From positions 1 through 20,087 of IMG/VR virus record IMGVR_UViG_3300037091_000497: a stretch of DNA of 20,087 nt. The stretch is one strand, 5' to 3'. This document shows positions 5,190 to 19,942 of the stretch, in pieces (position 1 is the first letter of the stretch; the number at the start of each line of letters is the position of its first letter). The position numbers were made by a program, and so were the translations under genes. The DNA comes from a virus. Under the pieces are notes generated by a model, which made no database searches, was not told the origin of the DNA, and saw only the letters and a program-made list of their open reading frames with translations.

Positions 5190-5219
5190 TGAATCTTTAT
5201 CGTACGTTCACACAGCGTT

Positions 5220-5243
5220 ATTTGGTAAAGAACTTTACCAAAT
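5220..5243. repeat. 24-bp perfect palindrome before the TPR gene
   Basis: Arms ATTTGGTAAAG and CTTTACCAAAT flank a central AA. The palindrome touches the stop codon of the upstream (leftward) small Cys protein and ends 31 bases before the TPR gene start. In RNA it would be an 11-bp stem with a minimal loop, but no T-run follows on the leftward strand. An operator for a dimeric repressor or a processing hairpin are both possible. Confidence 0.6.
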
Positions 5244-5461
5244 TATCGCTTTTTCTCGTAGAGACACTCTATGCAAGCTGAGGGGTTTGCCCATCTTGAA
5301 GGGTCTCTAGGTCCTTGGTTTATTGGGCATCGTGCTTCTACTTCTCCATTTTCGTATACGATTATTATTGCTTGGACTGATGCTTCGTCCAGCATGTGTG
5401 ATTTGCACATTAGGGCGCAGGTTACGAGCTGGGTCGATATTATCTTTGCCTGTTCGCTCAT
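5243..5461 (-). CDS. Small Cys protein A (paralogue of the 5815-6066 gene)
   Basis: A 72-residue protein of unknown function whose start overlaps the stop of the Thr-rich gene (TAATG at 5459-5463). It carries IIST near the N-terminus, then C15/C19, a two-strand segment 'AIIIVYENGEVEARC' and a C-terminal C-x2-C followed by LYE. The gene at 5815-6066 shows the same order of IIST, V-x-C, a 'VxYxxGxxExRC' strand and a late Cys pair with YE, so the two are related copies. The four to five conserved cysteines suggest a small zinc-binding fold. Confidence 0.65.
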   Translation of the reverse strand: MSEQAKIISTQLVTCALMCKSHMLDEASVQAIIIVYENGEVEARCPINQGPRDPSRWANPSACIECLYEKKR

Positions 5462-5622
5462 TAATAGCCTGTTCTTTCACGCTGCTTTTTTTCCCATGAA
5501 TCTGGTTTTGCTGGGACTGGGCCAAATGGGTCACGACGAGGCTCTTCTTTCGGAGGTGGTGTTTTTGTTGTTGTAGTCGTCCTAGTTGTAGTCGTCCTTG
5601 TTGTAGTCTTCTCTTCTGGCAT
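5461..5622 (-). CDS. 53-aa Thr-rich, Pro-rich peptide
   Basis: This small gene has a strong Shine-Dalgarno (GGGGAGGG, leftward strand) a few bases before ATG 5622 and a stop that overlaps the next gene's ATG, so it is probably translated and coupled to it. The first half is a low-complexity run of Thr blocks separated by Arg or Lys (residues 4-21). The second half is PPPKEEPRR...PFGPVPAKPDSW and ends KKQRERTGY. It has no membrane segment and is probably disordered. I know no family for it. Confidence 0.6.
   Translation of the reverse strand: MPEEKTTTRTTTTRTTTTTKTPPPKEEPRRDPFGPVPAKPDSWEKKQRERTGY
5569..5613 (-). repeat. Three 15-bp tandem repeats encoding Arg-Thr-Thr-Thr-Thr units
   Basis: Plus-strand units TGTTGTAGTCGTCCT (5569-5583), AGTTGTAGTCGTCCT (5584-5598) and a diverged third (5599-5613) lie in register inside the Thr-rich gene. 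Being a multiple of three, copy-number change would lengthen or shorten the Thr-rich stretch without shifting frame. Confidence 0.7.
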
Positions 5623-5672
5623 TGTTACCCTCCCCTATTATTATTTCTTTTTAGCTCTAGGCAATTTTGGTA

Positions 5673-5828
5673 TCATTGTACGTAGCTTTTGAAGAGCTTA
5701 GGTATGCCTCTCTGCTCCTTCTTACGTATTGCAATCCCAGAGTATCACCATTGTCCACGAACCGCCCTACTTAGTTTGAACATGGCTGCCACGCCTGGCG
5801 TCCGCTTGAACTCTTCAGTTCCCCTCAT
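5673..5828 (-). pseudogene. Possible broken small ORF (in-frame TGA)
   Basis: Leftward from ATG 5828, overlapping the end of the 5815-6066 gene by 14 bases, a frame runs 27 codons (MRGTEEFKRTPGVAAMFKL...GQW), meets TGA at 5745-5747, and then stays open for 23 more codons (YSGIAIRKKEQRG...SYVQ) to TGA 5673-5675. The composition is basic on both sides of the stop. It could be one small gene with a nonsense mutation, or chance. There is no strong Shine-Dalgarno. Confidence 0.2.
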
Positions 5829-6066
5829 ATGGACAATGTTCCTCAGGACATTCGTGCTTTCCCGTAACGCCCCTTTTTTGTACCATGTCACCATTAAAAG
5901 TGTAAAGAGTTTCTACAATGACCGGTCTCTCCATAGCGCACCTGACTTCCTGGGTGCCATCATTGTAGAAAACGACAAGTGCATCACACTTGCCATAGAT
6001 GCAATGTACCGTCGAAGTACTGATTATTTGATGGTCTTCAGTTGAATGTGCCATCGGAATCTGCAT
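5815..6066 (-). CDS. Small Cys protein B (paralogue of the 5243-5461 gene)
   Basis: An 83-residue protein (or 79 from the second Met, MAHSTED). It shares with protein A the order IIST, V-x-C-x4-C, a 'ALVVFYNDGTQEVRC' hairpin and a late Cys pair (ECPEEHCPYE). Cysteines at about 22, 27, 43, 73 and 78 could form a zinc site. It differs by an insertion between the third Cys and the last pair. The function is unknown. It lies in the leftward cassette between the J-domain gene and the Thr-rich gene. No clear Shine-Dalgarno distinguishes the two starts. Confidence 0.6.
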   Translation of the reverse strand: MQIPMAHSTEDHQIISTSTVHCIYGKCDALVVFYNDGTQEVRCAMERPVIVETLYTFNGDMVQKRGVTGKHECPEEHCPYEGN

Positions 6067-6096
6067 ACCAATCGATCGGTGATTGTTCTTTACCGG

Positions 6097-6183
6097 TCAT
6101 TTTATTAATCGCCTCAGCCCTTCGCTAACGGTTGCCTTTCCAGGCATCTGTTTAGCTCTAAGTTTTGCTTTATCGCCACCCAC
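6097..6183 (-). CDS. Possible 28-aa basic micro-ORF
   Basis: GTG 6183 opens a frame reading VGGDKAKLRAKQMPGKATV... to TGA 6097-6099; that stop overlaps, as ATGA, a second micro-ORF of 20 codons (6038-6100, MTGKEQSPIDWYADSDGTFN). The coupling and the protein-like composition are suggestive, but the frames are tiny, the GTG has no good Shine-Dalgarno, and an in-frame ATG slightly upstream is cut off by TGA after three codons. Treat as a candidate only. Confidence 0.25.
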   Translation of the reverse strand: MGGDKAKLRAKQMPGKATVSEGLRRLIK

Positions 6184-6220
6184 ACCCCATCAGCTAGTCA
6201 TTCCATCTTCTTCGGGCTTA

Positions 6221-7006
6221 TTATTCTTCCCAAAAAATATAAAATACGCCTCTCAATCGCGCCATCGGCGTATCGGTGGAATTTTGCCTGATTGATTCAG
6301 CGGCAACGAAAACCACGAGGATGATAAGCAAAGTTAGCAATATTACCACCCACCATGGCCTGGCCAGCAAAAAGTGAAGGCACGGGAGGGCTATGATAGT
6401 GAATATGGCTAACCAACCATTACCTGTATAAAATAAAGAAGGAATCATAAGACCTAACGATATAGGTAACACCCATGATATTAACTTGAGCCAACCCAGA
6501 TGAGGCCAGTCGGGTAGATGCCTACCAATACCCGTGAAGATGGGATAAAAATCCTTAATAAAAAATATGGACCAAGATATTGCCGCAACGAACGTTACGC
6601 CAATTCCTACCCTTTTGAAGATTAGCAGCGTTCTATCTATATCCCAAACATGTCGCTTTTGTTTGGTAGCAGAATTATCTTTTTGCCTTGGTTTTTGCCC
6701 TTCATATTGATAGAGCGGGCCTTCATTCGATCTGTTCTGCGGGTTGGTAGCCCTAGATGTTCTGTACGTAGAATCGGGCTGGCCTGTGGGTCTACTTGCA
6801 GTTCTACTCGAAGGTTTTGTTAGAAATGTATTGGCTTCGTTTACAAGTTTGAATTCTTCTTCAGCTTTGAACCTGACACGCTCTGGCTTACCTATATTCA
6901 TATCGGGATGAAGAAGTTGAGCCTTATAAAAATATTGTGCTTTTATCTCGGCATCACTCGCTGTTGGGGGAACACCAAGCACACGACAAGCCTCTTCCCA
7001 AGTCAT
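6221..7006 (-). CDS. J-domain protein with four membrane helices
   Basis: A 261-residue membrane protein with an N-terminal J domain (about 1-62) containing the HPD tripeptide (33-35, LLHPDMN), the residues by which DnaJ-family proteins stimulate Hsp70 ATPase. Residues 65-120 are a Ser/Thr/Gln/Arg-rich linker. Four hydrophobic segments follow (about 133-151, 172-193, 197-214 and 219-236). There is no G/F or zinc-finger domain in this chain. A GGTGA lies about nine bases before the ATG. It probably anchors a host Hsp70 (DnaK) activity at the membrane. In the leftward cassette it follows a separate mini-protein carrying a DnaJ-like zinc finger. Use in host physiology, assembly or superinfection exclusion is inference. 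Confidence 0.8.
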   Translation of the reverse strand: MTWEEACRVLGVPPTASDAEIKAQYFYKAQLLHPDMNIGKPERVRFKAEEEFKLVNEANTFLTKPSSRTASRPTGQPDSTYRTSRATNPQNRSNEGPLYQYEGQKPRQKDNSATKQKRHVWDIDRTLLIFKRVGIGVTFVAAISWSIFFIKDFYPIFTGIGRHLPDWPHLGWLKLISWVLPISLGLMIPSLFYTGNGWLAIFTIIALPCLHFLLARPWWVVILLTLLIILVVFVAAESIRQNSTDTPMARLRGVFYIFWEE

Positions 7007-7029
7007 ATTAAATAGTCACCACGGAAACA

Positions 7030-7050
7030 TAGGACAAAAAGTCTGTCCTA
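7030..7050. repeat. Inverted repeat TAGGACA / TGTCCTA
   Basis: Perfect 7-bp arms separated by seven bases lie between the mini zinc-finger gene and the J-domain gene, 24-44 bases before the J-domain start on the leftward strand. It may be a transcript hairpin or a protein site. There is no T-run. Confidence 0.4.
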
Positions 7051-7085
7051 CTGCCCGTTGCTATAGTTACCCAGCGTCCGCTCAA

Positions 7086-7202
7086 CTATTTTTTATTTTT
7101 TCCGACCGTTACCCACCCCGTACCGCGACATGTAGGACACACATTAGCGGGTATACCAATATAACCTTTCCCCCCACAGCGTCCACATTTTCTTGTAGCC
7201 AT
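7086..7202 (-). CDS. 38-aa DnaJ-type zinc-finger mini-protein
   Basis: A very short gene with a good Shine-Dalgarno (CGGAGG, leftward strand) before ATG 7202. The protein reads C6-x2-C9-GGKG then C22-x2-C25-RGTGW, i.e. two CxxCxGxG knuckles. This is the motif of the DnaJ central zinc-binding domain, which normally has four knuckles forming two zinc sites; here one pair remains as a free-standing peptide. It is encoded 80 bases upstream of the J-domain membrane protein, so the two DnaJ parts are split over neighbouring genes. It could help substrate binding or act as a small nucleic-acid or protein binder. The motif is clear; partnership with the J protein is inferred. Confidence 0.7.
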   Translation of the reverse strand: MATRKCGRCGGKGYIGIPANVCPTCRGTGWVTVGKNKK

Positions 7203-7246
7203 TCTAACCTCCGTATACGGCTGCCGCTCTTGGCGTCCGCTTATCT

Positions 7247-7438
7247 CTATCTAGCTCTACGTTTCGCATCATCTGGGTTCCCGTCTGTCTTTCTTGGTCG
7301 TATGACACCAGGATGAGTAACAGGCGGCTTAGGCCACGTTATGATAGGATTATCAGGCATGGGTAACTTCGGACCTACCTTCCTAATAGGGATAGGTTCA
7401 GGCTTTGCCGACTTTGTTGGCATTTTATTAATCACCAT
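7247..7438 (-). CDS. Small Pro/Lys-rich hypothetical peptide
   Basis: A 63-residue basic peptide rich in Pro and Lys/Arg (KPEPIPIRKVGPKLPMPDNP...PKPPVTHPG), probably disordered. The in-frame ATG at 7423 (residue 6) has GGTGAT nine bases upstream and is perhaps the better start than ATG 7438. It lies between a membrane protein and the mini zinc finger, in the same direction and closely spaced. It has no cysteine and no membrane segment. Function unknown; it could be an adaptor tail or a spurious frame. Confidence 0.45.
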   Translation of the reverse strand: MVINKMPTKSAKPEPIPIRKVGPKLPMPDNPIITWPKPPVTHPGVIRPRKTDGNPDDAKRRAR

Positions 7439-7448
7439 CGTCTCACAT

Positions 7449-7817
7449 CTATCCCCAAAGATTTTTCCTTAGTTTCTTCATAGAATTACTCGCTCCCGTT
7501 ATGAATTCTGCCCCATTTCTGTTAACCCTCGGTACATGCCAGTCCATACCTCTTTGAATATCATTTCGTTGACGATTACCGTTTACGACGATGTATGTAT
7601 CCCCAGGTTCCTCATAATAATAAGTGGTTCTTCGTCGTACTTCTCTATTTCTTGGATTAGCCAAGACGTAATATAATACGATTGCGCCAAAGATAATTCC
7701 TAAGACAATCAAAATTTGTTTCCAAAAAACAGCAATAAGAATTATAACCGCCACCATTGCGAGCAATTTACCCCACCAAGGTATTTTGTTAAATAATCCT
7801 CTCATAATAAGTTTCAC
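7449..7817 (-). CDS. Small membrane protein with two hydrophobic segments
   Basis: A 122-residue protein: a short amphipathic start (FNKIPWWGKL), two closely spaced hydrophobic segments (about 15-31 and 34-52), then a basic juxtamembrane stretch (NPRNREVRRR) and a polar tail with TTYYYEE and a Lys-rich C-terminus, likely cytoplasmic. It is the first gene of the leftward cassette, behind a candidate promoter (-10 at 7855-7860). The GGGAGGT on the leftward strand lies only about two bases before GTG 7817 and about 14 before ATG 7805, so the true start is uncertain between the two. No family is recognised. Confidence 0.6.
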   Translation of the reverse strand: MKLIMRGLFNKIPWWGKLLAMVAVIILIAVFWKQILIVLGIIFGAIVLYYVLANPRNREVRRRTTYYYEEPGDTYIVVNGNRQRNDIQRGMDWHVPRVNRNGAEFITGASNSMKKLRKNLWG

Positions 7818-8132: not shown

Positions 8133-8534
8133 ATGTCACCTTTTCGTCCATCCCGTCCGTGTGCACACTCAGGATGCCCAGAACTAACAACAGATCGGTC
8201 TGGTTATTGTGATCAGCATCTACGTATTGCAAGACAGCAGTATGACCATGATAGAGGCTCTGCAACACAGCGGGGCTACTCATCCCGATGGGCGGAGTAC
8301 TCCAGGCTATATCGGATTGAGCACCCACTCTGTGTGATGTGTGAAGCCCAGGGCAGGGTAACAGCCAGTGAGCACGTGGACCACATCAAGCCGGTGAGTG
8401 GGCCGGGCGACCCGCTGTTCTGGGAACCAACCAACCATCAGGCCCTCTGCCAGTCCTGCCACTCAATCAAGACAGCGAGGGAAGACGGCGCCTTCGGAAA
8501 CAAGCGCAGGGAAAACACGGATAACAGGGGATAA
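8133..8534 (+). CDS. Phage HNH endonuclease
   Basis: A 133-residue HNH nuclease of the kind that sits next to terminase genes and aids DNA packaging and cos cleavage in HK97-like phages. The core is C67-x2-C70, the catalytic DH (D83-H84, VDHIKP), N101-H102 and C106-x2-C109-H110 (CQSCHSIKTARE), so both the zinc pairs and the HNH residues are present. An N-terminal extension carries its own C10/C15/C26/H29 cluster, common in phage forms. I chose ATG 8133; an upstream TTG (8103) adds ten residues with no support. In many relatives this gene directly precedes the small terminase; here a non-coding stretch and a methylase module lie between. Confidence 0.9.
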   Translation: MSPFRPSRPCAHSGCPELTTDRSGYCDQHLRIARQQYDHDRGSATQRGYSSRWAEYSRLYRIEHPLCVMCEAQGRVTASEHVDHIKPVSGPGDPLFWEPTNHQALCQSCHSIKTAREDGAFGNKRRENTDNRG

Positions 8535-8813: not shown

Positions 8814-9536
8814 ATGATTATTAAAACCATTCCGATAACTCAAATAAACCCTGCCGCATATAACCCGCGCAAAGACCTGCAGCCGGGGGACCCGGAGTAC
8901 AAGAAACTCAAGAAGTCGCTGACCGAGTTTGACTGCGTAGAGCCTCTCGTCTGGAACGAGGGCACGGGCAACCTAGTCGGCGGCCACCAGCGCCTTAAGG
9001 TCCTCAAGGACCTGGGCCGGACCGAGGTCGAAGTATCGGTAGTTCAACTTGATGACGCAAAAGAGAAAGCCCTCAACCTGGCGCTGAATAAAATCTCCGG
9101 TGAGTGGGACCTGCCCCGCTTGAAGGACCTTCTTGAGGAGATTAACACCGGCGCCTTTGATATCGAGGTCACCGGCTTCGATGATAAGGAAATCGAAGAA
9201 CTGATGACGCAGTTCCACGTGCCCGAGGAAGGGCTCACCGACGAGGAAGTCATCCCCGAGGTTGTGGAACCTGTCTGCAAGAAAGGCGACCTGTGGCAGC
9301 TCGGGGCTCATCGCCTCCTCTGCGGCGACGCTACCAAGCCAGGAGATATCGAGCGTCTGATGGCCAGCGAGAAAGCCGATATGGTATTTACAGACCCGCC
9401 CTATAACGTAAACTACGGCTCCATCGTAGGGCATCCGTCCTACAAGAGAACCAAGGGAAGGACCCGGATTAACAAAACCCGCGAAGGACATCCATATTGG
9501 AAAGACAGGGAAGCCAAGGGGATCGGTTACGAATGA
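8814..9536 (+). CDS. ParB-domain/DNA adenine methyltransferase, N-terminal part (frameshifted)
   Basis: The 240-residue N-terminal part of a phage-type fusion. Residues 1-105 are a ParB/Sulfiredoxin-like domain with N17-P-R and GGHQR (56-60). Residues 150-200 begin a methyltransferase domain (GDLWQLGAHRLLCGDAT, then the catalytic DPPY at 194-197). DPPY ahead of the cofactor motif marks a beta-type N6-adenine (less likely N4-cytosine) methylase. The frame ends at TGA 9534-9536 in the middle of the domain, and the rest continues one frame over from 9541. Phages use such enzymes to mark their DNA against host restriction. As written, this fragment lacks the SAM-binding motif and should be inactive alone. 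Confidence 0.85.
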   Translation: MIIKTIPITQINPAAYNPRKDLQPGDPEYKKLKKSLTEFDCVEPLVWNEGTGNLVGGHQRLKVLKDLGRTEVEVSVVQLDDAKEKALNLALNKISGEWDLPRLKDLLEEINTGAFDIEVTGFDDKEIEELMTQFHVPEEGLTDEEVIPEVVEPVCKKGDLWQLGAHRLLCGDATKPGDIERLMASEKADMVFTDPPYNVNYGSIVGHPSYKRTKGRTRINKTREGHPYWKDREAKGIGYE

Positions 9537-9540
9537 CAAT

Positions 9541-10122
9541 ATGTCTCTGGAAGAATGGGACTACTTCGTCCGGGGTTATATGCAGAACCTGATGGACTTT
9601 AACACCGGCGCATTCTACATTTGCATGTCGAACAAGGAGATGTACTCGAACAAACACATCTTTGAAGAACTGGGCGGTCACTGGGCGAGCTTCATCATCT
9701 GGCACAAGGACCTCTTCGTCATGGGGATGCAGGATTACCAGCGGCAGTATGAGCCCCTCCTCTATGGCTGGAAGGAAGGCGGCAAACATCACTGGTGCGG
9801 TGATCGTAACCAGTCTGACGTCTGGGACGTCAAGCGCCCGAGGTCGAGCCCTGAACACCCGACCATGAAACCCATCGCGCTGTGCGAGCGGGCCATCAAC
9901 AACAGTTCCCTGGTAGGGAACATCGTCCTGGACACCTTCGGTGGCTCTGGCTCTACTATGATTGCCGCGGAGAAGCTGGGACGCAAGTGCTACATGTCGG
10001 AACTAGAAGAACACTACTGCGACGTGATCTTAAAAAGGTGGGAAGACTACACCGGAAAGAAAGCCACTCTCACAACGAGCCAGGCCGCTGGTGAAGCGGC
10101 CTGTGGCGGGAAACCGGCCTAG
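9541..10122 (+). CDS. DNA methyltransferase, C-terminal part (frameshifted)
   Basis: A 193-residue continuation of the methylase. The frame already makes sense upstream of its first ATG (N-D-N-M-S-L-E-E-W), which is a family-like sequence directly following the target-recognition side, so this is the severed second half rather than an independent gene. It contains HPTMKP and the SAM-binding motif I DTFGGSGSTMIAAEKLGRK, followed by the closing CDVILKRWEDYTGKK. A net loss of two bases (or gain of one) near 9531-9537 would explain the break. ATG 9541 has no Shine-Dalgarno. Its end lies two bases from the convergent RAMA-like gene. Confidence 0.8.
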   Translation: MSLEEWDYFVRGYMQNLMDFNTGAFYICMSNKEMYSNKHIFEELGGHWASFIIWHKDLFVMGMQDYQRQYEPLLYGWKEGGKHHWCGDRNQSDVWDVKRPRSSPEHPTMKPIALCERAINNSSLVGNIVLDTFGGSGSTMIAAEKLGRKCYMSELEEHYCDVILKRWEDYTGKKATLTTSQAAGEAACGGKPA

Positions 10123-10123
10123 C

Positions 10124-10627
10124 TTACTTGGCAGGGTGGCAGTTAGGGCAGACGGGGTTCTTGATGTCGCTTTTGGCAGGGAAGGGGCTGCTGCAGTCAA
10201 AGCAGTAATATCTGGTTAGCCCTGCCGGCGCACCTTTCTGGTTCGGGAGTTTGTAGACGCCGGACTTAGGCGGTTTGGGCTTTTCGGTTTTCTCCATCTT
10301 ATCGATCTTGGCGACTGTCTCGTCGTAGGTTGGGATGGGTTTCGGCAGTTTAAGTTTCCCTATGCTGGCTGCCTTGTCGATGTGCTGCTCGATATTTGAG
10401 AAGTCGACCGGCTTGGCTTCACCTGCTATCGACCAGAAGTGCCATCCGTCGCAGGCGTGTCCGGTGACCGCTGTTCCTGCGGCTGAAGGGCTCTTGAAGG
10501 CGCGGCCGTCATCGAGTCTGAAGTAAAGCTTTCCATTCTCGTCCAGGTGCGTTTCGCATGTGCGGTCCTGCTTGTGGTAGCGACCTACCAGTTTGGTTCC
10601 TGCGGTTAGATTCCTGTCCTGTATCAT
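10124..10627 (-). CDS. RAMA-like domain protein with C-terminal zinc ribbon
   Basis: A 167-residue protein. Residues 7-66 match the pattern of RAMA/DUF4357-type domains (restriction enzyme adenine methylase associated): a start 'GTKLVGRYHK', a strand pair ending 'DDGRAF', then SPSAA (46-50), VTG and DGWHFW (60-65). A Lys/Pro-rich linker (about 90-135) leads to a zinc ribbon, C142-x2-C145 ... C160-x2-C163. RAMA domains are proposed to recognise modified DNA or accompany methylases; here the gene faces the methylase tail to tail, two bases apart. AAGGAG precedes ATG 10627 by six bases. Its role as a reader of the phage's own methyl mark is inferred. Confidence 0.7.
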   Translation of the reverse strand: MIQDRNLTAGTKLVGRYHKQDRTCETHLDENGKLYFRLDDGRAFKSPSAAGTAVTGHACDGWHFWSIAGEAKPVDFSNIEQHIDKAASIGKLKLPKPIPTYDETVAKIDKMEKTEKPKPPKSGVYKLPNQKGAPAGLTRYYCFDCSSPFPAKSDIKNPVCPNCHPAK

Positions 10628-10995: not shown

Positions 10996-11478
10996 ATGCC
11001 GAATCATAAGAAACCAACAGCCATCAAAAAGTTGGAGGGGAATCCCGGGAAACGTCCTCTCAATGAAAACGAGCCGATGCCGAAAAAGGGAATCCCGACC
11101 TGTCCTTCTCATCTGAATAGCGCGGCCCGAACCGAATGGAAAAGGATCATTCCGCAGCTCGATGAGTTAGGGCTTATTTCCGAACTGGACAGGTCCGCTC
11201 TGGCTGCCTATTGCCAGGCCTACGGGCGTTGGGCCGAGGCGGAGAGGATGATCGCCAAACATGGCACGATCATCAAACACCCTAACGGATCACTGATGAC
11301 CTCGCCTTTTCTAAACGTGGCCAACAAGGCCATCGAGCAGATGTATAAATACCTGATTGAGTTCGGGCTGACCCCAGTTTCCCGGACCCGGGTGAGTGTG
11401 CCCAAGTCCAAAGAGGATGATGCCCTGGAAGATATCATGCAGCAGGCCGAGAGGCTGGCTAGAGAGAAGGGCTTTTAA
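10996..11478 (+). CDS. terS: Terminase small subunit, P27 family
   Basis: A 160-residue P27-type small terminase, which binds the packaging site on phage DNA and hands it to the large subunit. The family hallmarks are present: the N-terminal 'LEGNPGKRPLNENEP' box (residues 14-28), 'CPSHLNSAARTEWKRIIPQL', then the helices 'LDRSALAAYCQAYGRWAEAE' and '...KHPNGSLMTSPFLNVANKAIEQMYKYLIEFGLTP'-like region. A GGGAG lies 11 bases before ATG 10996. The stop directly abuts the large terminase start (TAAATG). Length is normal for the family. Confidence 0.92.
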   Translation: MPNHKKPTAIKKLEGNPGKRPLNENEPMPKKGIPTCPSHLNSAARTEWKRIIPQLDELGLISELDRSALAAYCQAYGRWAEAERMIAKHGTIIKHPNGSLMTSPFLNVANKAIEQMYKYLIEFGLTPVSRTRVSVPKSKEDDALEDIMQQAERLAREKGF

Positions 11479-13011
11479 ATGTGTTTTCAGAACAGGCCGC
11501 TGACAAAGCGGTTAAATTCATCGAATCGCTCAAGCAGTCGCAACCGTATTATCAGGCCGCTGTTCGGTACCCTCAACCCGGACGGCACTCGCCAGTATCG
11601 TACCCTTTTCCTGACCATCCCGCGCAAGAACGGCAAGACAGAGCTCGCCGCGGCCATCGCCAATTACCTTCTGTTTGCCGATAACGAGGGCGGGGCGCAA
11701 ATCTACTGCGCTGCCTCCGACCGCGACCAGGCGGACATCGTCTTTAAAGAGATCGCTGCCATGGTGCGGAGCGCTCCTGCCCTCGAGCGGCGGTCCACCA
11801 TCCTGGATAGCGTCCACCGTATCGTTGTTCAGCAAACCAATTCCTACTGCCGCTCCATCTCGGCCGAGGCCTATAGCAAACATGGCTTCAATTCTCACGG
11901 GGTTGTATTCGACGAGCTGCATGCCCAGCCGAACCGCGACTTGTGGGACGTTCTTACCACATCAACCGGCGCTCGCCTGCAGCCGCTTGTCGTGGCCATA
12001 ACTACAGCCGGGTTCGATCGCAATTCCATCTGTTACGAAGTCTATGACTATGCGCGCAAGGTGCGCGACGGGATTGTAACTGACCCCACCTTCCTGCCGG
12101 TGATCTTCCAGGCCGAGGAAGAAGACAGTTGGGAGGATGAGCAGGTCTGGGCCAAAGCTAATCCGGCGCTCGGGACATTCCGAAGCGTCGACGAGCTGCG
12201 CCAGATGTTTTTCCGGGCCAAAGAAATACCGGCGCTCGAGATGACCTTTCGTCGGCTCTATTTGAATCAGTGGGTCAACTCGGTCGAGCGCTGGCTTCCG
12301 ATGGACAAATGGGACGATTGCACTGATGCAGTTGGAGATCTCTCGGGCAAGCCCTGCTACGCCGGTCTTGACCTCTCCAGTACGACGGACCTGACGGCAC
12401 TCGCGCTTGTATTCCCTGCCGAGGACGGTAGCTATGACGTTTTGTGGCGCTACTGGATACCGGAAGACACCGCCACCGAAAAGGAGCGCAAGGATCGAGT
12501 GCCCTACCGGGAATGGGCCAGGCAAGGGTATATCACGATGACTCCCGGGAACATCATCGACTACGGCTATGTGTTAAAGCAGATCACCCAAGACATGGCC
12601 GGTTACGACCTGCGGGAATTGGCCTTCGACCGCTGGGGAAGCCAGAAGCTTACTACTGACCTGCAGGAGATGGGCTTCTCCGTTGATCCGAAAGTGCAGG
12701 GTGCGCACCTGGTGGCCTTCGGTCAGGGTTTTGCCTCGATGTCATCCCCGACCAAGGAGCTCATGACTTTGGTGTTGAGCAAGAAGATCCGGCACGGAGG
12801 CAATCCTGTATCCCGCTGGTGCGCCGATAACATGGTGGTGGCAACCGACCCGGCAGGCAACCTCAAACCTGATAAAGCCAAGGCGACGCAGAAGATAGAC
12901 GGCATGGTGGCCATGATTATGGCGCTCGACAGGGCGGCCCGTCATACCGGTGCGGACGGCAAGTCAGTCTACGAGACCCGCGGCATCATCAGACTCTCAG
13001 ACCTGGAGTGA
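11479..13011 (+). CDS. terL: Terminase large subunit, N-terminus apparently disrupted
   Basis: A 510-residue packaging motor. Walker A is PRKNGKTE (48-55), Walker B VVFDE (142-146), with the nuclease domain from about 290 (GLDLSSTTDL, catalytic-type D298) and a late KIDG near the C-terminus. The first 22 residues of this frame (MCFQNRPLTKR...) look unlike the family. The +2 frame from GTG 11481 instead reads FSEQAADKAVKFIESLK, a typical large-terminase start, and the present frame becomes family-like only at RIIRPLFG (about residue 23). The usual stretch in between, carrying the adenine-contacting 'LLPWQ'-like motif, is missing. This points to an out-of-frame deletion of about 50-65 bases near 11535-11550. 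If real, packaging is probably lost. Confidence 0.85.
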   Translation: MCFQNRPLTKRLNSSNRSSSRNRIIRPLFGTLNPDGTRQYRTLFLTIPRKNGKTELAAAIANYLLFADNEGGAQIYCAASDRDQADIVFKEIAAMVRSAPALERRSTILDSVHRIVVQQTNSYCRSISAEAYSKHGFNSHGVVFDELHAQPNRDLWDVLTTSTGARLQPLVVAITTAGFDRNSICYEVYDYARKVRDGIVTDPTFLPVIFQAEEEDSWEDEQVWAKANPALGTFRSVDELRQMFFRAKEIPALEMTFRRLYLNQWVNSVERWLPMDKWDDCTDAVGDLSGKPCYAGLDLSSTTDLTALALVFPAEDGSYDVLWRYWIPEDTATEKERKDRVPYREWARQGYITMTPGNIIDYGYVLKQITQDMAGYDLRELAFDRWGSQKLTTDLQEMGFSVDPKVQGAHLVAFGQGFASMSSPTKELMTLVLSKKIRHGGNPVSRWCADNMVVATDPAGNLKPDKAKATQKIDGMVAMIMALDRAARHTGADGKSVYETRGIIRLSDLE

Positions 13012-13013
13012 TT

Positions 13014-14255
13014 ATGAAACTATCAGACATCGCCGTCAGGGCGCTAAAAGCCCCTAGCCTCAAGGACTTCGTCGTCAGCCTGCTGCCGGGCCAGAGGAAT
13101 GACGGGTTAACATCAATCAGTCGAGCCGGCGTCTCTATCAACGAGGCTAACGCCCTTAGCCAGATCACTGTCTTCGCCTGCGTGCGTGTCATCTCCGAGA
13201 CGCTGGCATCCCTGCCGCTGATGCTATACCGCCGCCTGCCGCGGGGCAAGGAGCGCGCCATCGATCACGAGCTCTACCGCATCCTGCACGACCAGCCTAA
13301 CCCCGAGATGGACAGCATGACCCTACGCGAGACGCTCATGGCCCACGTGCTCACCTGGGGCAACGGTTACGCCCAGATTATCTGGGACGACTACACACAC
13401 ATCAAGGAGCTCCGCCCGCTCTACCCCGACCGCATGTGGGTCACGCGCGACCCGGTAACCAAGCAGGTTCTCTATAACTACAGCCCTTCGGGCGGCGGCG
13501 GGCCGGTCACTCTTCCGGCATACCGCGTGCTCCACATACACGGCCTGGGCTTTGACGGGCTGGTTGGCTACTCGCCCATCGCTATGATGCGCGAGGCGGT
13601 CGGGCTTGCCAAAGCCACCGAGCAGTTCGGTTCCACGCTCTTCAAGAACGGCGTCAATGCCTCCGGCATATTCACTTATCCCGGCAAACTCGGGGATGAC
13701 GGACGGAAGAATCTCAAAAAGAGCCTAAAAGAAAACTCCGGGCTTGAAAACGCCTTCGACCCCATGATTCTGGAAGAGGGTATGAAGTGGACGCAAATCA
13801 CCATCCCTCCGGAAGATGCGCAGTTCCTCGAGACCCGCAAGTTCCAACGCGGAGAGATAGCCAGCTTCTTCCACGTCCCGCCGCATATGATCGGCGATCT
13901 CGATCGGGCCACCTTCTCCAACATAGAGGAGCAGGCGCTGGAGTTTGTGGTGTTCACCATGCGTCCCTGGTTGGTGCGCTGGGAGCAAGCCATGAATCTC
14001 AAGCTGCTCTCCGTGGCCGAGCAGAAAGATTATTTCACAGAGCACCTGGTGGACGGGCTGATGCGGGGCAACATGGCCGCGCGCTCGTCTGCCTATGCCA
14101 CTGCCAGACAGTGGGGATGGCTCTCGGCCAACGATATCCGCGAGATGGAGAACATGAACCCGCTGCCTGGCAAGGACGGCGACACATATCTCTCGCCGCT
14201 CAATATGACGCCGGCGGACCAGCTTACCGCCGCGCTTAACAAACCCAAGCTGTAA
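13014..14255 (+). CDS. Portal protein, HK97 family
   Basis: A 413-residue portal protein that forms the dodecameric DNA gateway of the head. Family features: the N-terminal 'SINEANALSQITVFACVRVISETLASLPLMLYRR' segment, 'HELYRILHDQPNPEM', 'TWGNGYAQI', 'GLVGYSPI', a tunnel-region helix and 'GEIASFFHVPPHMIGDL...TFSNIEEQALEFV' that is split here only by my quotation. I prefer ATG 13014, with GGAG five bases upstream, over GTG 13008 which overlaps the terminase stop. The order terminase-portal-protease-capsid is canonical. The sequence appears intact and of normal length. Confidence 0.93.
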   Translation: MKLSDIAVRALKAPSLKDFVVSLLPGQRNDGLTSISRAGVSINEANALSQITVFACVRVISETLASLPLMLYRRLPRGKERAIDHELYRILHDQPNPEMDSMTLRETLMAHVLTWGNGYAQIIWDDYTHIKELRPLYPDRMWVTRDPVTKQVLYNYSPSGGGGPVTLPAYRVLHIHGLGFDGLVGYSPIAMMREAVGLAKATEQFGSTLFKNGVNASGIFTYPGKLGDDGRKNLKKSLKENSGLENAFDPMILEEGMKWTQITIPPEDAQFLETRKFQRGEIASFFHVPPHMIGDLDRATFSNIEEQALEFVVFTMRPWLVRWEQAMNLKLLSVAEQKDYFTEHLVDGLMRGNMAARSSAYATARQWGWLSANDIREMENMNPLPGKDGDTYLSPLNMTPADQLTAALNKPKL

Positions 14256-14265
14256 AGGAGGCAAC

Positions 14266-15078
14266 ATGCCAAAGAAAAAGGACGATGAGATTAAAAACGA
14301 GACCGGAGAACTTGAGCACAAATCTTTCACCGGCATGGAACTCAAAGCGGAGAAGCCGGGAAGCTTCACTGCGCGCATCGCCACCCTCGATGTTATCGAC
14401 AAGGACGGGGACGTCACCATCCCAGGGGCTTTCCCTGCGGGTAAGACCATCCTCATCTCCGCCTATCAACACGGCAGCTGGAGCGGCGGTCTGCCGGTGG
14501 GGAAAGGAGTCATCCGCGAGGCGGGCAGCGACGTCTTTGTGGACGGTGAGTTCAACCTCAAAACCGACACCGGCAGGGAGCATTACGAGACCGTCAAGTT
14601 CGCCCCGGACCTGCAGGAGTGGAGCTACGGCTTCACCGTGAAGGACAAGGAACTCGATACCGAGTGGAACGGAAACAGCGTCAGGCGAGTCTTAAAGAAG
14701 CTGGATGTTTTCGAGGCTTCGCCGGTACTCAGAGGGGCCGGAATGAATACCGGCACCGTGAACATCAAATCCGATAACGAGGGCGCAACCTATGCCGACC
14801 AGTCCGAGGATCTGCTTACAAGAATCCGGGACTGGCTCGAGCGGAGCAAATCGCTTTCCGATCTGCGCCGCAAGCAGGGGAAGGCCCTGGCTATATCCCC
14901 CGTTAACCGGGACCGGGTGGAGGCTCTCCTCAAGGAAATAGGGGCGCTCTCTGCCGAAATCAAGGCCCAGCTGGAACCCACCGCACCCGCACAGGAACAG
15001 CCAGACAGGAAAGAAGTCGAGAGGGTAGTGCTGGCCTACCACAAGCTCAAATTTAAAAATCTGGAGGAATTAACCTAA
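14266..15078 (+). CDS. HK97-type prohead serine protease
   Basis: A 270-residue maturation protease. The fold signature 'GSFTARIATLDVIDKDGDV' is followed by the catalytic His in SAYQHGSW (H69), the 'LPVGKG' strand, and the catalytic Ser in EWSYGF (S120). It cleaves the scaffolding part of the capsid protein and itself during head maturation. After about residue 175 the chain continues into a Lys/Arg/Glu-rich helical tail (185-270), longer than the minimal protease, possibly a capsid-targeting segment. AAAGGAGG precedes ATG 14266. The stop lies one base before the capsid start. Confidence 0.9.
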   Translation: MPKKKDDEIKNETGELEHKSFTGMELKAEKPGSFTARIATLDVIDKDGDVTIPGAFPAGKTILISAYQHGSWSGGLPVGKGVIREAGSDVFVDGEFNLKTDTGREHYETVKFAPDLQEWSYGFTVKDKELDTEWNGNSVRRVLKKLDVFEASPVLRGAGMNTGTVNIKSDNEGATYADQSEDLLTRIRDWLERSKSLSDLRRKQGKALAISPVNRDRVEALLKEIGALSAEIKAQLEPTAPAQEQPDRKEVERVVLAYHKLKFKNLEELT

Positions 15079-15079
15079 C

Positions 15080-16303
15080 ATGAAAACCGAGAAAACTCTC
15101 CGCGAGGAAATCAAGGCCAAATCTGACGCCCTGCACCAGGTCTTCACCGAGGCTGGAACCGACATCGATATGGACAAGGTGAAATGCATCGAGGGCGACA
15201 GTACCGCCAAGGTGGCCAAAGTGGGCGCCATGGAGCATGAACTCGAAGACCTGCATAAGGAATTCGAGACCATCTCCGCCCTCAAGCACGCGCGCCAGGC
15301 CGCTGATGACGGCGCCAAACTGGCAGCCGAACCCGACCTCCGCGGCAATCCCGCGCCCGCCGTTAAAACCATCGGGCAGCTCATCATGAAGAGCGGGGCT
15401 CTCAAAGCGGAGCATAACCCCGTCATGCTGGACGTCGACCCCAAGTCGACCCTGCTCGACGCCGAAGCCAAAGCCAACTTCTTCACCACCTCCGGCTGGG
15501 CGCCCGAGAACCTGCGCATGCCGGGCTTCGTGGGTTCTCCCACCAGGCCCATCGCCGTCATCGACCGCATCCCCATCTACCCTACCACCCAGAACAGCGT
15601 GGTCTACATGCTGGAGAGCACTTTCACAAACTCCGCCGCTGAAAAGGCGGAAGGCGACGCCGCTGCCGAGTCTGCGCTGGCCCTGACCGCGACCACAGAT
15701 GAGGTCGAGGAAATCGGCACCTTCGTGCCGGTCTCCAAGGTACAGCTTGAGGACGTTCCTATGGCTGAGGCCTATCTCACCAACCGTCTCACCTTCATGG
15801 TGCGCCAGAAGCTCGACAAGCAGATCCTGGAAGGCTCCGGTTCTACACCTTCCCTGATGGGCACGCTTCACCTGGCGGCATTGCAGGCTCAGGCCAAGGG
15901 CTCCGACCCGACCCCCGACGCCATCTACAAGGCCTTCGACCTGGTGCGCACCGTGGGCTTCACCGAACCCAGCGATCTCTTCATCAACCCCACCGACTGG
16001 CAGGACATTCGCCTGCTGCGCACCGCCGACGGCATCTACATCTTCGGCAACCCGACTGACACCGGACCGACCCGCATGTGGGGCGTCCCAGTGACCATCA
16101 CCACCGCCGTCACCGTCAACACCGCCCTCTGCGGCGACTATGCCAACTTCTCCTTCCTGGCCATGCGCCGCGGCGTCGAGGTCGAAATGAGCTCCGGCTA
16201 CAGCGACTACTTCGTCAAGGGCAAACTGGCCGTCCTGGCAACCCTGCGCTGCGCCATGGTGCACACCCGCATCACGGCCTTCGCCAAGATCACCGGCATC
16301 TAA
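15080..16303 (+). CDS. Major capsid protein, HK97 fold
   Basis: A 407-residue capsid subunit. Residues 1-95 form a charged, helical delta-like scaffolding domain (EKTLREEIKAKSDALHQVF..., MEHELEDLHKEFE...) removed by the protease. The mature part has the family sequences 'DRIPIYPTTQNSVVYMLE', 'EEIGTFVPVSKVQLEDVP', 'LTNRLTFMVRQKLDKQILEGSG', the P-domain 'LFINPTDWQDIRLLRTADGIYIFG' in two parts and the terminal 'GVEVEMSSGYSDYFVKGKLAV'-like strand. The start at ATG 15080 has GGAGG about 12 bases upstream. A strong hairpin follows the gene. A 403-codon antisense frame here is a by-product of codon bias. Confidence 0.93.
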   Translation: MKTEKTLREEIKAKSDALHQVFTEAGTDIDMDKVKCIEGDSTAKVAKVGAMEHELEDLHKEFETISALKHARQAADDGAKLAAEPDLRGNPAPAVKTIGQLIMKSGALKAEHNPVMLDVDPKSTLLDAEAKANFFTTSGWAPENLRMPGFVGSPTRPIAVIDRIPIYPTTQNSVVYMLESTFTNSAAEKAEGDAAAESALALTATTDEVEEIGTFVPVSKVQLEDVPMAEAYLTNRLTFMVRQKLDKQILEGSGSTPSLMGTLHLAALQAQAKGSDPTPDAIYKAFDLVRTVGFTEPSDLFINPTDWQDIRLLRTADGIYIFGNPTDTGPTRMWGVPVTITTAVTVNTALCGDYANFSFLAMRRGVEVEMSSGYSDYFVKGKLAVLATLRCAMVHTRITAFAKITGI

Positions 16304-16325
16304 ACGTAAAAAGTCGAAAACACCG

Positions 16326-16353
16326 GGAGGCGGGGAATTAAAATCCCGCCTCC
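16326..16353 (+). terminator. Strong hairpin after the capsid gene
   Basis: GGAGGCGGG (16326-16334) pairs perfectly with CCCGCCTCC (16345-16353) over a ten-base AT-rich loop. There is no T-run after it, so it may be a transcript stabiliser or partial attenuator rather than a full terminator. A similar hairpin follows the tail tube gene. Confidence 0.55.
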
Positions 16354-16367
16354 TCCTGTTTCAGGAG
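16353..16367 (+). promoter_or_regulatory. Hairpin covering the Shine-Dalgarno of the next gene
   Basis: CTCCT (16353-16357) can pair with AGGAG (16363-16367), which is the ribosome site of the gene starting at 16374. It shares one base with the capsid hairpin, so pairing could limit translation of the downstream gene. The stem is short (5 bp). Confidence 0.35.
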
Positions 16368-16373
16368 AAAAAC

Positions 16374-17210
16374 ATGAAGCACAAACTGCTCAGGATGCTC
16401 ACGCTCATCCTCACCCTGCCCTTGCTGCTGGTCTTCGGCATCCCGCCTGACAGCGGCGAGACTTCCCTCATCATCGAGGGCAGCCGGAAGCGCCCGTGGC
16501 GCAACGCCGGAGTTCCTACTGATGGGGTCTCCGGCACTTATGCCGCCATCGCCGCCAAGGGCGACCTGCTTATCGATACAACCAACGGAACCATTTATCA
16601 GAACACGAACACCCTGGCTTCGCCCACGTGGACGCAATTGACCGCTTCGACAGTCGCCTATGGTCTGGTCGGTGATATGGCGGCTAGCGGCACCGCAGCG
16701 GCCAACGTCGTCGGCGTGAGCGCGTCCGCCTCCCGGGTCGACCACGTGCATAAAATCGGTGTGCATGACCATTCCGACAATACCAAGGGCTCGCCGATCG
16801 TCGAGGCTGGCATCGCTGCCGCTTCGCTCACCGGTCTGGTGGCCAAGGTCGTGGCCGACGGCAATGTCATCGGCGGCCTCCCGGTAGTTCACCGCGTCGC
16901 CATGGCGGGCGGAGCCACCGCTACCGTCAACGTCCTCCTGACCCACAAAACTCGCGTCACCGACGTCCTGGTGATTAACAAAGCGGCGGGAACGACGAGC
17001 GACACTATCACAGTCAAGAATGTTTCAACGGCCATTACCGATGCCATCTCCATCGCTGGCGGCGACAAGACCATCGCCCGCGCCGGCACGATCGACGATG
17101 CTCAATGGGACGTCGAGGCCGGTACCAACCTGGCGGTCACCGAGACTGACGGAGGCGGTAACGACTCTCCCGCCTGCGACGTCATGATATCCGGTATCCG
17201 CGTGGCCTAA
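16374..17210 (+). CDS. Probable head decoration/fibre-like protein with signal-like N-terminus
   Basis: A 278-residue protein between the capsid and connector genes. The first 22 residues are a charged start and a hydrophobic stretch (LLRMLTLILTLPLLLVFG) that looks like a signal peptide or anchor, which is unusual for a virion protein. Residues 40-135 are Gly/Ala/Thr-rich with 'GDLLIDTTNGTIYQNTN', 'VDHVHKIGVHDHS' and similar motifs of phage fibre and spike proteins. Residues 160-278 form a beta-rich, Thr/Val-rich domain with alternating strands. AGGAG precedes ATG 16374 by six bases. A capsid decoration or head fibre is the best guess from its place; it has no diagnostic domain. Confidence 0.65.
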   Translation: MKHKLLRMLTLILTLPLLLVFGIPPDSGETSLIIEGSRKRPWRNAGVPTDGVSGTYAAIAAKGDLLIDTTNGTIYQNTNTLASPTWTQLTASTVAYGLVGDMAASGTAAANVVGVSASASRVDHVHKIGVHDHSDNTKGSPIVEAGIAAASLTGLVAKVVADGNVIGGLPVVHRVAMAGGATATVNVLLTHKTRVTDVLVINKAAGTTSDTITVKNVSTAITDAISIAGGDKTIARAGTIDDAQWDVEAGTNLAVTETDGGGNDSPACDVMISGIRVA

Positions 17211-17220
17211 AGGAAACAAA

Positions 17221-17391
17221 ATGCAGTGCAAGTGTAAGTATTTTAAGCTCGCCGGAGGCTTGCTGGTCTGCTCTGTTTGCGGCAAGCCCGCCAACACTCC
17301 TTCCGCTCCCGTCATCGAGGACAAGAACGTCCTCCCCGAGGAAAACAAGGCCTCCGCAGCAATCAAGCACGCAGCCAAAAAGCGCAAATAA
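17221..17391 (+). CDS. 56-aa zinc-ribbon-like mini-protein in the head cluster
   Basis: A short gene with AAAGGA before ATG 17221 that ends 12 bases before the connector gene. The protein begins with C3-x-C5 and then VCSVCGK (C17-x2-C20), a four-Cys ribbon, followed by a flexible Pro/Glu/Lys-rich tail ending KKRK. Small zinc ribbons of this kind occur next to phage capsid genes. Function unknown; the basic tail might touch DNA or the capsid. Confidence 0.65.
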   Translation: MQCKCKYFKLAGGLLVCSVCGKPANTPSAPVIEDKNVLPEENKASAAIKHAAKKRK

Positions 17392-17403
17392 CAGGAGGCT
17401 CTC

Positions 17404-18000
17404 ATGGCCTTGAAAGTAATCACCCCGCCCGCCGTCGAACCCGTCAGCCTCACCGAAACCAAACTGCACCTGCGCGTTGACGGTGCGGCGGAAGACACTC
17501 TCATCTCCGGCCTCATCCAGGCGGCGCGCGAGCACATCGAGAACGTGCTGACTCACTGCGCTCTATGCACACAGACGCTGGAGTACGTCATCAGCCAATT
17601 TCCCGACGATTGCGAAGCTATCCAGGTGCCGAGGCCACCTTTGCAGTCGGTCACCAGTATCAAGTACACCGACTCGGCGGACGTGGTCCATACCATGGAC
17701 GCCGGAGACTACTGCGTCAATACCGACGGTAACCCGGGTCTCGTCACTCCGGCCTACGGCCTGAGCTGGCCCTCGGTTTCTCTTGCGTCTTCGGGCGCCG
17801 TGCGCATCCGCTATGTAGCGGGTTGGGGACTGGCAGATGCCGCTCCGCAATCCCTCAAGCAGGCCATCCTGCTCCTGGTGGGGCACCTCTACGAGAACCG
17901 CGCCGTAATGGTCAACAGCCAGGTCCAGGGCGAGATGCCCTTCGCCGTAAGTGCTCTGTGCGACGGATATATGTGCTTCATGTGGGGCATGGAGGACTAG
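17404..18000 (+). CDS. Head-tail connector protein, gp6-like
   Basis: A 198-residue protein of the HK97 gp6-type (DNA-packaging/adaptor) family that forms the ring under the portal. Typical are the start 'VEPVSLTETKLHLRVDGAAEDTLI' leading to 'IQAAREHIEN', a middle beta part ('IQVPRPPLQSVTSIKY'), 'GAVRIRYVAGWG' and the end 'PQSLKQAILLLVGHLYENR'. The Shine-Dalgarno AGGAGG lies eight bases before ATG 17404. It is followed at once by the head-closure gene. Confidence 0.88.
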   Translation: MALKVITPPAVEPVSLTETKLHLRVDGAAEDTLISGLIQAAREHIENVLTHCALCTQTLEYVISQFPDDCEAIQVPRPPLQSVTSIKYTDSADVVHTMDAGDYCVNTDGNPGLVTPAYGLSWPSVSLASSGAVRIRYVAGWGLADAAPQSLKQAILLLVGHLYENRAVMVNSQVQGEMPFAVSALCDGYMCFMWGMED

Positions 18001-18001
18001 C

Positions 18002-18319
18002 TTGGATATCGGGAAGCTGCGGCACCGCGTAACCATAGAAACCCCCACGACGGGCAGCGACGCCTCGGGAGGCGTCACCTATACGTGGAATACCTTCGCC
18101 GTAGTGTGGGGCTACATCGAACCCCTGACGGCCCACAAGCTGTTCCAGGCCAAGCAGGCCAACGCGGACACCACCGGCATCATTCATATACGCTACGTCG
18201 CCGGGTTGTTGCCTATTATGCGCGTCAAGTACGGCTCGCGCATCTTCCTCATCACCTCCATCATCGCAGACGAGCAAAAGTCAGAGACGCAAATCTTATA
18301 CAAGGAAGCGCTCGACTGA
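18002..18319 (+). CDS. Head-tail joining (head closure) adaptor
   Basis: A 105-residue protein of the SPP1 gp16/phage head-tail joining family. The sequence begins 'DIGKLRHRVTIETPT', then 'GGVTYTWNTFAVVWGYIEPL', 'IIHIRYVAGL' and 'RVKYGSRIFLITSII', the usual beta-barrel order. I start it at TTG 18002, which is seven bases after GGAGG (17991-17995) and gives the family's normal N-terminus; a longer frame from 17951 merely runs through the previous gene. The stop overlaps the next start (TGATG at 18317-18321). Confidence 0.85.
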   Translation: MDIGKLRHRVTIETPTTGSDASGGVTYTWNTFAVVWGYIEPLTAHKLFQAKQANADTTGIIHIRYVAGLLPIMRVKYGSRIFLITSIIADEQKSETQILYKEALD

Positions 18320-18771
18320 TGCCTGATGGCATTTCCATAAGCGTCGAAGGTATCGACGAGCTCAAGGCGGAGATGCGTAAGCTGGCCAAATGCGTCGCCG
18401 CCGACAAGGTGGAGCCCCTCCTGCTCGAGGGTGCCCAGACCGTCAGGGACACGGCCAAACTGAATGCACCCGTCGGCCCTACGGGCAACCTTAAGAAATC
18501 ACTCGTTGCTAAATACCTGGCCTCCCTCGGCGTCGGCAAACCGCGCAGCGCCCTGGCGGGCTTCGACCGCAAGAAAGCGCCCCATGCCTGGCTGGTTGAG
18601 TTCGGTTCGCCCGGACGCTACGCCAAGAAGGGCAAGTACAAAGGGCGCTACTACGGCCCGATGCCGGCCAACCCGGTCATGCGAAACGCCTGGGACAGCA
18701 GCAAGGACTGGGTTCTGTCCCGCATCATCCATGAGCTGTGGAAACTCATTGAGGAGAGCGTGAAAAAATGA
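18319..18771 (+). CDS. HK97 gp10-like tail/neck component
   Basis: A 150-residue protein of the HK97-gp10-like family, which joins head and tail. Visible signs: the N-terminal 'VEGIDELKAEMRKLA', then 'DTAKLNAPVGPTGNLKKSL', the 'HAWLVEFGSPG' strand and 'ANPVMRNAWDSSKD'. The start at ATG 18319 overlaps the previous stop and removes the frame's spurious upstream extension. It ends in an ATGA overlap with the next gene, so the neck genes are translationally coupled. Confidence 0.87.
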   Translation: MPDGISISVEGIDELKAEMRKLAKCVAADKVEPLLLEGAQTVRDTAKLNAPVGPTGNLKKSLVAKYLASLGVGKPRSALAGFDRKKAPHAWLVEFGSPGRYAKKGKYKGRYYGPMPANPVMRNAWDSSKDWVLSRIIHELWKLIEESVKK

Positions 18772-19145
18772 GCCTCGAAAGCGAACTCTACACCTGGCTG
18801 AAAACCAATGTCACGCTGGTTGGGAGCCGCGTCTATGCCGTCGTGGCTCCGCAGGACGTCCCCTCTCCGTATCTTGTCTTTACCCGGATATCCGACGTTC
18901 CGGATTACACCCTCGAAGGACCCAGCGGCCTCTCCGTCTGCCGCGTGCAGTTCACCGCTGTCTCGGGAACCTTCGCCTCGACCAGAGCTGTTATCGCCCA
19001 GCTGGAGGCGGAGCTTTCCGGTTTCAGGGGAGTCATGGGAGGGCTTTCGGTCGGCTCGGTATTCAAGGAACTCGAAACCGACAGCTACGAACCGGAGGGT
19101 CTTCTGTATCAGTCCATCGCGGATTATATGTTCACCATCAACTAA
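18768..19145 (+). CDS. DUF3168-type tail completion protein
   Basis: A 125-residue protein of the gp17-like/DUF3168 family that completes the tail end at the head-tail joint. It shows 'LESELYTWLKTN', 'SRVYAVVAPQDVPSPYLVFTRIS', a central 'RVQFTAVSGTFASTRAVIAQLE' and 'YQSIADYMFTIN' at the end. The start overlaps the gp10-like stop (ATGA, 18768-18771). It sits directly before the tail tube gene as in other siphoviruses. Confidence 0.85.
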   Translation: MSLESELYTWLKTNVTLVGSRVYAVVAPQDVPSPYLVFTRISDVPDYTLEGPSGLSVCRVQFTAVSGTFASTRAVIAQLEAELSGFRGVMGGLSVGSVFKELETDSYEPEGLLYQSIADYMFTIN

Positions 19146-19165
19146 TAAATTCAGGAGGTAAAACT

Positions 19166-19894
19166 ATGAGCCCAGTTACTCAAGCGATCGCTGGCTACGG
19201 GACGAGCTTAACCCGGGACGGCCATCCTATCGCAGAACTTACCAAACTTTCGGGACCTAAGAAAAGCGCCGACACCATAGACGTTACCAACTTCGGCAGT
19301 CCCGATTCCTACCGCGAGTTCATCCGAGGCTTCAAAGATGGAGGGGAGGTCGGCATCGAAGGCAACTTCATCCCGGGCGATATCGACGGCCAGGCCGGAC
19401 TGGATGAAGACTACGAGGCCGGTACCGTGCAGACCTTCATCATGACCTTCGTCAACGGAACCACCTGGACCTTCAGCGCCGTGGTCAAGGATCTGGGAAC
19501 CGACACGCCCTTCGACGGCAAGGTGGGCTTCAGCGCTACGCTCAAGGTATCCGGTAAGCCGGTCCTCGGCGTGATGCTCTCGGACTTCCTCAGCGGCATG
19601 GACTTCGAAGACAGTGCGGGCGCCAAGACCAGCATACCCGCTCTCGCGGACGATACGTATACCTATTCACTGACCATCGATACGGATAGCTCGTACATCA
19701 AAATCACTGTCACCCAGGAGGCTGCCGTTACCATCGTGGCGAGCTGCCTCGGCGTCAGTCACAACCTGACCACCGGGGTACAGTCCGGCGAGATTGCGGT
19801 CGGAGATGCCAACACGACTACGCTGCTCACCGTCACCGCCAGCGACACGGGCAAATCACCCAGGGTCTATACCATCTACGTGGTACGTCCCTAA
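19166..19894 (+). CDS. Major tail tube protein with C-terminal cadherin-like domain
   Basis: A 242-residue tail tube subunit. Residues 1-134 carry the tube fold signs ('KKSADTIDVTNFGSPDSYREF', in parts; 'DGGEVGIEGNF'; 'TFIMTFVNGTTWTFSAVVKDLG'; 'GFSATLKVSGKP'). Residues 150-242 form an extra beta-sandwich (TYTYSLTIDTDSSYIKITV..., 'VGDANTTTLLTVTASD', 'SPRVYTIYVVRP') resembling the cadherin-like/Ig-like domains that decorate tail tubes and probably touch cell surfaces. AGGAGG precedes ATG 19166. A strong hairpin follows the gene. Confidence 0.88.
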   Translation: MSPVTQAIAGYGTSLTRDGHPIAELTKLSGPKKSADTIDVTNFGSPDSYREFIRGFKDGGEVGIEGNFIPGDIDGQAGLDEDYEAGTVQTFIMTFVNGTTWTFSAVVKDLGTDTPFDGKVGFSATLKVSGKPVLGVMLSDFLSGMDFEDSAGAKTSIPALADDTYTYSLTIDTDSSYIKITVTQEAAVTIVASCLGVSHNLTTGVQSGEIAVGDANTTTLLTVTASDTGKSPRVYTIYVVRP

Positions 19895-19918
19895 CCAATA
19901 TATTTTTTAAGAAATGAA

Positions 19919-19942
19919 GGAGGGCGGGTGGTCCCGCTCTCC
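19919..19942 (+). terminator. Strong hairpin after the tail tube gene
   Basis: GGAGGGCGGG (19919-19928) pairs with CCCGCTCTCC (19933-19942) with one G-U pair and a TGGT loop. It resembles the hairpin after the capsid gene in sequence and place. No T-run follows, so stabilisation or partial attenuation are likelier than full termination. Confidence 0.55.

Follow-up and report, generated by a model that had tools for sequence, protein, structure and literature searches.

The large terminase (TerL) of HK97 (PDB 6z6d) is the only relative with a solved structure that could be found by sequence, at E-values of up to 0.001, for the TerL described here, with which it aligns across both the ATPase and nuclease domains (ORF residues 33 to 487; E 3.9e-79). 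The HK97 residues M27 and Q33 have been assigned to a putative adenosine-binding pocket (PMC9410871), and correspond to residues 37 and 43 of the 6z6d chain minus a 10-residue tag, with both tag and positions counted by hand. Q33 is mentioned once, and not as a mutant, in PMC9410871, so that its essentiality is presumed.

The TerL under study is encoded on IMGVR_UViG_3300037091_000497, a 20,087-base IMG/VR virus record which, in its entirety and with no host genome behind it, forms the window analysed here. An HK97-like morphogenesis block is present in the usual order, comprising HNH endonuclease, ParB-methylase, small terminase (TerS) of the P27 type, TerL, portal, protease, capsid, connector proteins and tail tube protein. 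Twenty-eight of the one hundred listed ORFs were searched against PHROGs and seventeen of these matched a PHROG family. The features relevant to the comparison are the following:

8814-9536, plus strand: ParB-like region and N-terminal half of a DNA methyltransferase, ended by the TGA at 9534-9536
9541-10122, plus strand: remainder (C-terminal half) of this methyltransferase, in a different frame
10996-11478, plus strand: terS, encoding a small terminase of the P27 type (Pfam Terminase_4) in a single open frame
11479-13011, plus strand: terL ORF as written (ATG, 510 aa), with residues 1-22 an out-of-frame reading and residues 23-510 a normal TerL ATPase and nuclease
11481-11534, plus strand: family-like TerL N-terminal helix in frame 3, starting at a GTG and out of register with the ATPase frame (profile columns 4-24)
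11535-11544, plus strand: terL break, 10 nt against 57 nt in the relative L149 (HTKG...W-Q segment), net -47 nt, with ambiguous edges
11545-11574, plus strand: onset of the family-like ATPase frame (RIIRPLFGTL), placed by profile and L149 alignment
13008-14255, plus strand: portal protein, one open frame
15080-16303, plus strand: HK97-type major capsid protein, one open frame

Elsewhere in the window, a minus-strand group (4425-7817) lies between the replication and packaging genes and includes a TPR protein (4425-5189), a DnaJ-domain protein (6221-7006) with apparent membrane helices and a small possible membrane protein (7449-7817), membrane helices having been judged by eye. A RAMA-domain (restriction enzyme adenine methylase associated) protein is encoded at 10124-10627 on the minus strand, adjoining the broken methylase on the opposite strand. 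The tail tube protein (19166-19894) shows a C-terminal match to a cadherin-like beta-sandwich (residues 162-241) that falls slightly under the Pfam cut-off. A scan for promoters and terminators around terS-terL revealed nothing clearly exceeding shuffled sequences.

The terL ORF matched PF03354 (E 4.2e-25), PF20441 (E 3.9e-43) and phrog_9 (E 6.1e-170), and on these ATPase and nuclease profiles (Pfam TerL_ATPase and TerL_nuclease, PHROG 9) its product classifies as an HK97/P27-type large terminase, while no NCBIfam model matched either this ORF or the intact TerL of L149. Both the Walker A (K-x-x-K; K50 and K53) and Walker B (DE; D145 and E146) residues are invariant in an alignment of 32 sequences, as are the nuclease-site aspartates D298, D384 and D474. 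With the tag offset given above, the Walker A lysines are aligned with K57 and K60 of HK97 and are kept, and the three aspartates stand opposite HK97 D302, D388 and D471 (residues named in PMC9410871), as counted by hand in the aligned portions. The window TerL contains no in-frame N-terminal segment with the adenosine-pocket glutamine; the HK97 segment with M27 and Q33 is aligned by the intact L149 protein and is missing from that of the window.

The TerL start was analysed with a 52-column profile, constructed from the TerL N-termini of related loci (115 distinct sequences) and run on six-frame stop-free stretches of at least 15 aa. The best match among the stop-free stretches of the window (i-E 3.2e-5) places columns 4-24 in frame 3 from GTG 11481, which reads VFSEQAADKAVKFIESLKQSQ, while frame 1 picks up columns 40-52 at RIIRPLFG (11545), with an i-E of 0.069 when only these 13 columns are counted, and continues into the remaining ATPase. 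The intervening columns 25-39 (GxWAGxPFxLxPWQ-like, with an H..G...G..F.L..W-Q pattern) were found at neither terL site in this six-frame search. A weak match of columns 21-34 within 8372-8521 (i-E 0.11) was put down to chance, this stretch belonging to a different frame of the HNH gene region at a distance of 3 kb. The helix in its native frame has a profile score of 22.4 bits, ranking 74 of 115 scored rows (median of the relatives 26.0), while the N-terminal peptide of the ATG frame scored last, at -2.6. Given that the frame-3 N-terminus scores like an intact one, the loss is either recent or an artefact. The preliminary description, made from the sequence, had placed a family-like start at GTG 11481 and the ATPase in another frame from RIIRPLFG, with the expected 'LLPWQ'-like segment between them absent, and the division of the profile over two frames bears out this picture. 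It had also proposed an out-of-frame deletion, giving about 50-65 bases as what reads might restore; the deletion agrees with the measured net loss of 47 nt relative to L149, which is slightly below that range.

The size of the loss is set by a single independent syntenic relative, the closest one, L149 (3300028276_000216), since L150 (3300028156_000009) is a near-copy of it (4 differences in 4,165 nt). The TerL of both is 64 % identical to that of the window over residues 21-506, and L149 shares the gene order of the window (ParB-methylase, TerS, TerL and portal), with L150 having all but the left end. From the K of the first helix to the codon aligned with the R of RIIR there are 57 nt in L149 and 10 nt in the window, and the alignment gaps sum to 47 nt, with the deletion edges placed to a precision no better than approximately 10 nt. 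The terL and methylase genes of L149 are each in one frame, with an additional 47 and 17 nt, respectively, at the two breaks of the window, and its TerL frame is open for 526 codons. The capsid in the record of L150 was of no use for auditing the downstream genes, being only 29 % identical.

Among the 149 related TerL loci (L002-L150, of which the viral part represents the best 80 loci), the missing segment lies within one stop-free frame in 145, a count that is partly circular as most of the scored loci had contributed to the profile. The remaining four comprise three in which the TerL match begins at or near the record edge (L014, L103 and L135) and one with a partial, C-terminal match (L148), and the short start was found in none of the readable loci; given the limit of 80 on the viral loci, rarer short forms may exist elsewhere. 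In a profile-free protein alignment of the window with 31 relatives, drawn from 113 full ORFs, the window occupies 4 of the 17 block columns, the next least being 14 (L127), and reads S and S at the positions of the W (30/31 relatives) and the Q (28/31). A first motif regular expression matched 86/132 loci; the other 46 were read by eye, and a W with Q or E after it seems to be missing only from L071 and L076. The profile test was adopted in place of this expression. A second expression, based on spacing, matched 111/132 loci and suggested L007 and L069 as short forms, which proved to be a misreading, with the whole segment present in both. Viral contigs were also searched for an exact junction 28-mer, an internal terL 32-mer and a terS 36-mer, with no records found for each, although own or near records may be omitted from this search. 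Nearer relatives were sought through the methylase, TerS and portal (best 80 loci each) and the capsid, and of the records so found only L230 (IMGVR_UViG_3300036884_000248; 4,710 nt) represents this virus, from a second dataset or assembly (dataset 3300036884). It is 100 % identical to window positions 15215-19924, starts inside the capsid gene and does not reach TerL. Among phage GenBank records there was no near DNA match to 10996-16300, and TerL was matched in 2,491 of these records, all at less than 60 % identity.

A split-hit test, which is blind to a short N-terminal break, detected split TerL matches in 2/147 loci, both of which carry large insertions. In L012 (977-2026) a 350-residue in-frame insertion occurs at ...SAEAY/SKHG..., starting with C and ending with HN before S. 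It has a LAGLIDADG_3 match, as well as weak, below-cut-off matches to intein-bearing NCBIfam models, and looks like an intein with a homing endonuclease. In L131 (6952-8000), a Desulfosporosinus MAG, TerL is split by approximately 1 kb between VIFD and ELHAQPNRDLWD, with a GIY-YIG/NUMOD3 ORF inside; there was no Rfam match at gathering score, and the insertion looks like a self-splicing intron with a homing endonuclease.

An ATG at 11479, lying two bases ahead of the native GTG, was missed in the preliminary description. It opens the ATPase frame and yields an unbroken ORF (11479-13011; 510 aa), and a plain ORF listing thus shows no frameshift. Any functional reading of terL as written is nevertheless considered very unlikely. 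Translation from ATG 11479 could give a TerL that works despite an exchanged N-terminus and the lack of the adenosine-pocket segment, for which the open ORF, the position of the ATG and the retention of the Walker A, Walker B and nuclease residues could be cited. The corresponding out-of-frame reading, taken over 18 codons where the helix is estimated to lie, is, however, also open in 50/108 distinct relatives, so that openness is no evidence of use. Furthermore, the helix shows no degradation in its native frame, the variant is seen in 0/145 readable relatives and AlphaFold2 assigns low confidence to the first 16 residues (pLDDT below 50 over residues 1-16), where the first 20 residues of the L149 TerL, as control, gave block means of 84 and 97. 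Such a functional variant is highly improbable, and that it would represent a working cos-type packaging ATPase, started from a shifted ATG and dispensing with the canonical adenosine-binding segment, is slightly less probable still. A programmed +1 frameshift, joining the GTG-initiated helix to the ATPase frame in a shortened, helix-bearing TerL, would fit with the two frames lying one base apart and their family-like parts 10 nt apart. Such a product would still be without the greater part of the missing segment (H, G, G, F, L and W), no slippery heptamer was recognised by eye at 11529-11545 and the methylase has the same kind of lesion, leaving this as the least credible of the functional readings.

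The ParB-methylase is broken at about 9525-9532, as had been claimed, with a net loss of 17 nt that leads into the TGA at 9534-9536, the rest following in another frame from 9541. This value was measured against L149 only, in which the right part of the methylase is 82 % identical, and relatives such as L158 vary in length there. The break is located approximately 2 kb upstream of that in terL, both losses (47 and 17 nt) are 2 modulo 3, and a second frame-breaking length loss at this distance was counted in favour of loss as the explanation. None of 80 methylase loci (best 80 loci) was split in the split-hit test, which missed the frame break of L158. No third break was seen among the ORFs searched (28/100 against PHROGs, 17 matched), a coarse audit in which family-less genes could hide one, and this speaks weakly against long decay.

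Loss may have occurred in the virus or in the record. In the latter case, terL and the methylase would be intact in the virus, and an assembly or library artefact would have dropped 47 and 17 nt from the contig at two joins that are chimeric or have poor coverage, a reading that is given somewhat less than an even chance. Consistent with it are the occurrence of two length losses within 2 kb with no third seen in the ORFs searched, and the normal appearance of both genes on either side, where differences to L149 are third-position-heavy (137/108/292 by codon position in the TerL body, counted over 478 codons including one stop sign in the L149 stretch, and 27/13/80 in the right part of the methylase). 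Frameshifted or truncated genes in other metagenome virus records of IMG/VR likewise show isolated breaks in otherwise normal genes, as in the window. Those in L004 (66-1592), with a premature stop near the TerL C-terminus, and L158 (4001-4560), with a small frame break in the methylase, are different in kind, the window instead losing 17 and 47 nt. Neither of these losses is of the single-base homopolymer type, and the edges carry no repeat of at least 8 nt to account for a collapse; shorter microhomology could be judged only with an intact copy. An exact 10-nt direct repeat, CAGGCCGCTG, does flank the terL break (11493-11502 and 11553-11562; 60 nt apart); recombination between its copies was rejected as the cause, as both copies are present and the loss would be left unexplained. 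Also against an artefact, the second record, L230, agrees with the window at every base of its 4,710 nt, but it includes neither break and the two may rest on common reads. A real, recent terL lesion, as opposed to one created by the assembly, is given about even odds, and this weighing of real lesion against artefact is a matter of judgement and not of computation. The preliminary description had ascribed the breaks to 'a decaying prophage or assembly errors', thereby naming the two likely candidates; no integrase was matched among the 28 ORFs searched against PHROGs, and an excisionase-like HTH is encoded at 188-394. Either way, this is a plain loss and not a new architecture, with an ordinary explanation.

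As recorded, the 5' end of terL is a net 47 nt short, which puts it out of frame, and the coding sequence between the first helix and IIRPLFG is absent from the site. If the lesion is real, it would be recent and reside in a provirus or a member of the viral population that is defective. By analogy with HK97, loss of the adenosine-pocket segment would be expected to abolish activity, and a protein produced from the 510-aa ORF, which is without the adenosine-pocket glutamine, should not power packaging. The element as written would then form no virions without help. Caution is required in that a plain ORF listing gives an unbroken 510-aa terminase, which hides the loss of the adenosine-pocket segment. 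Should the lesion be real, the element is most likely packaging-defective.
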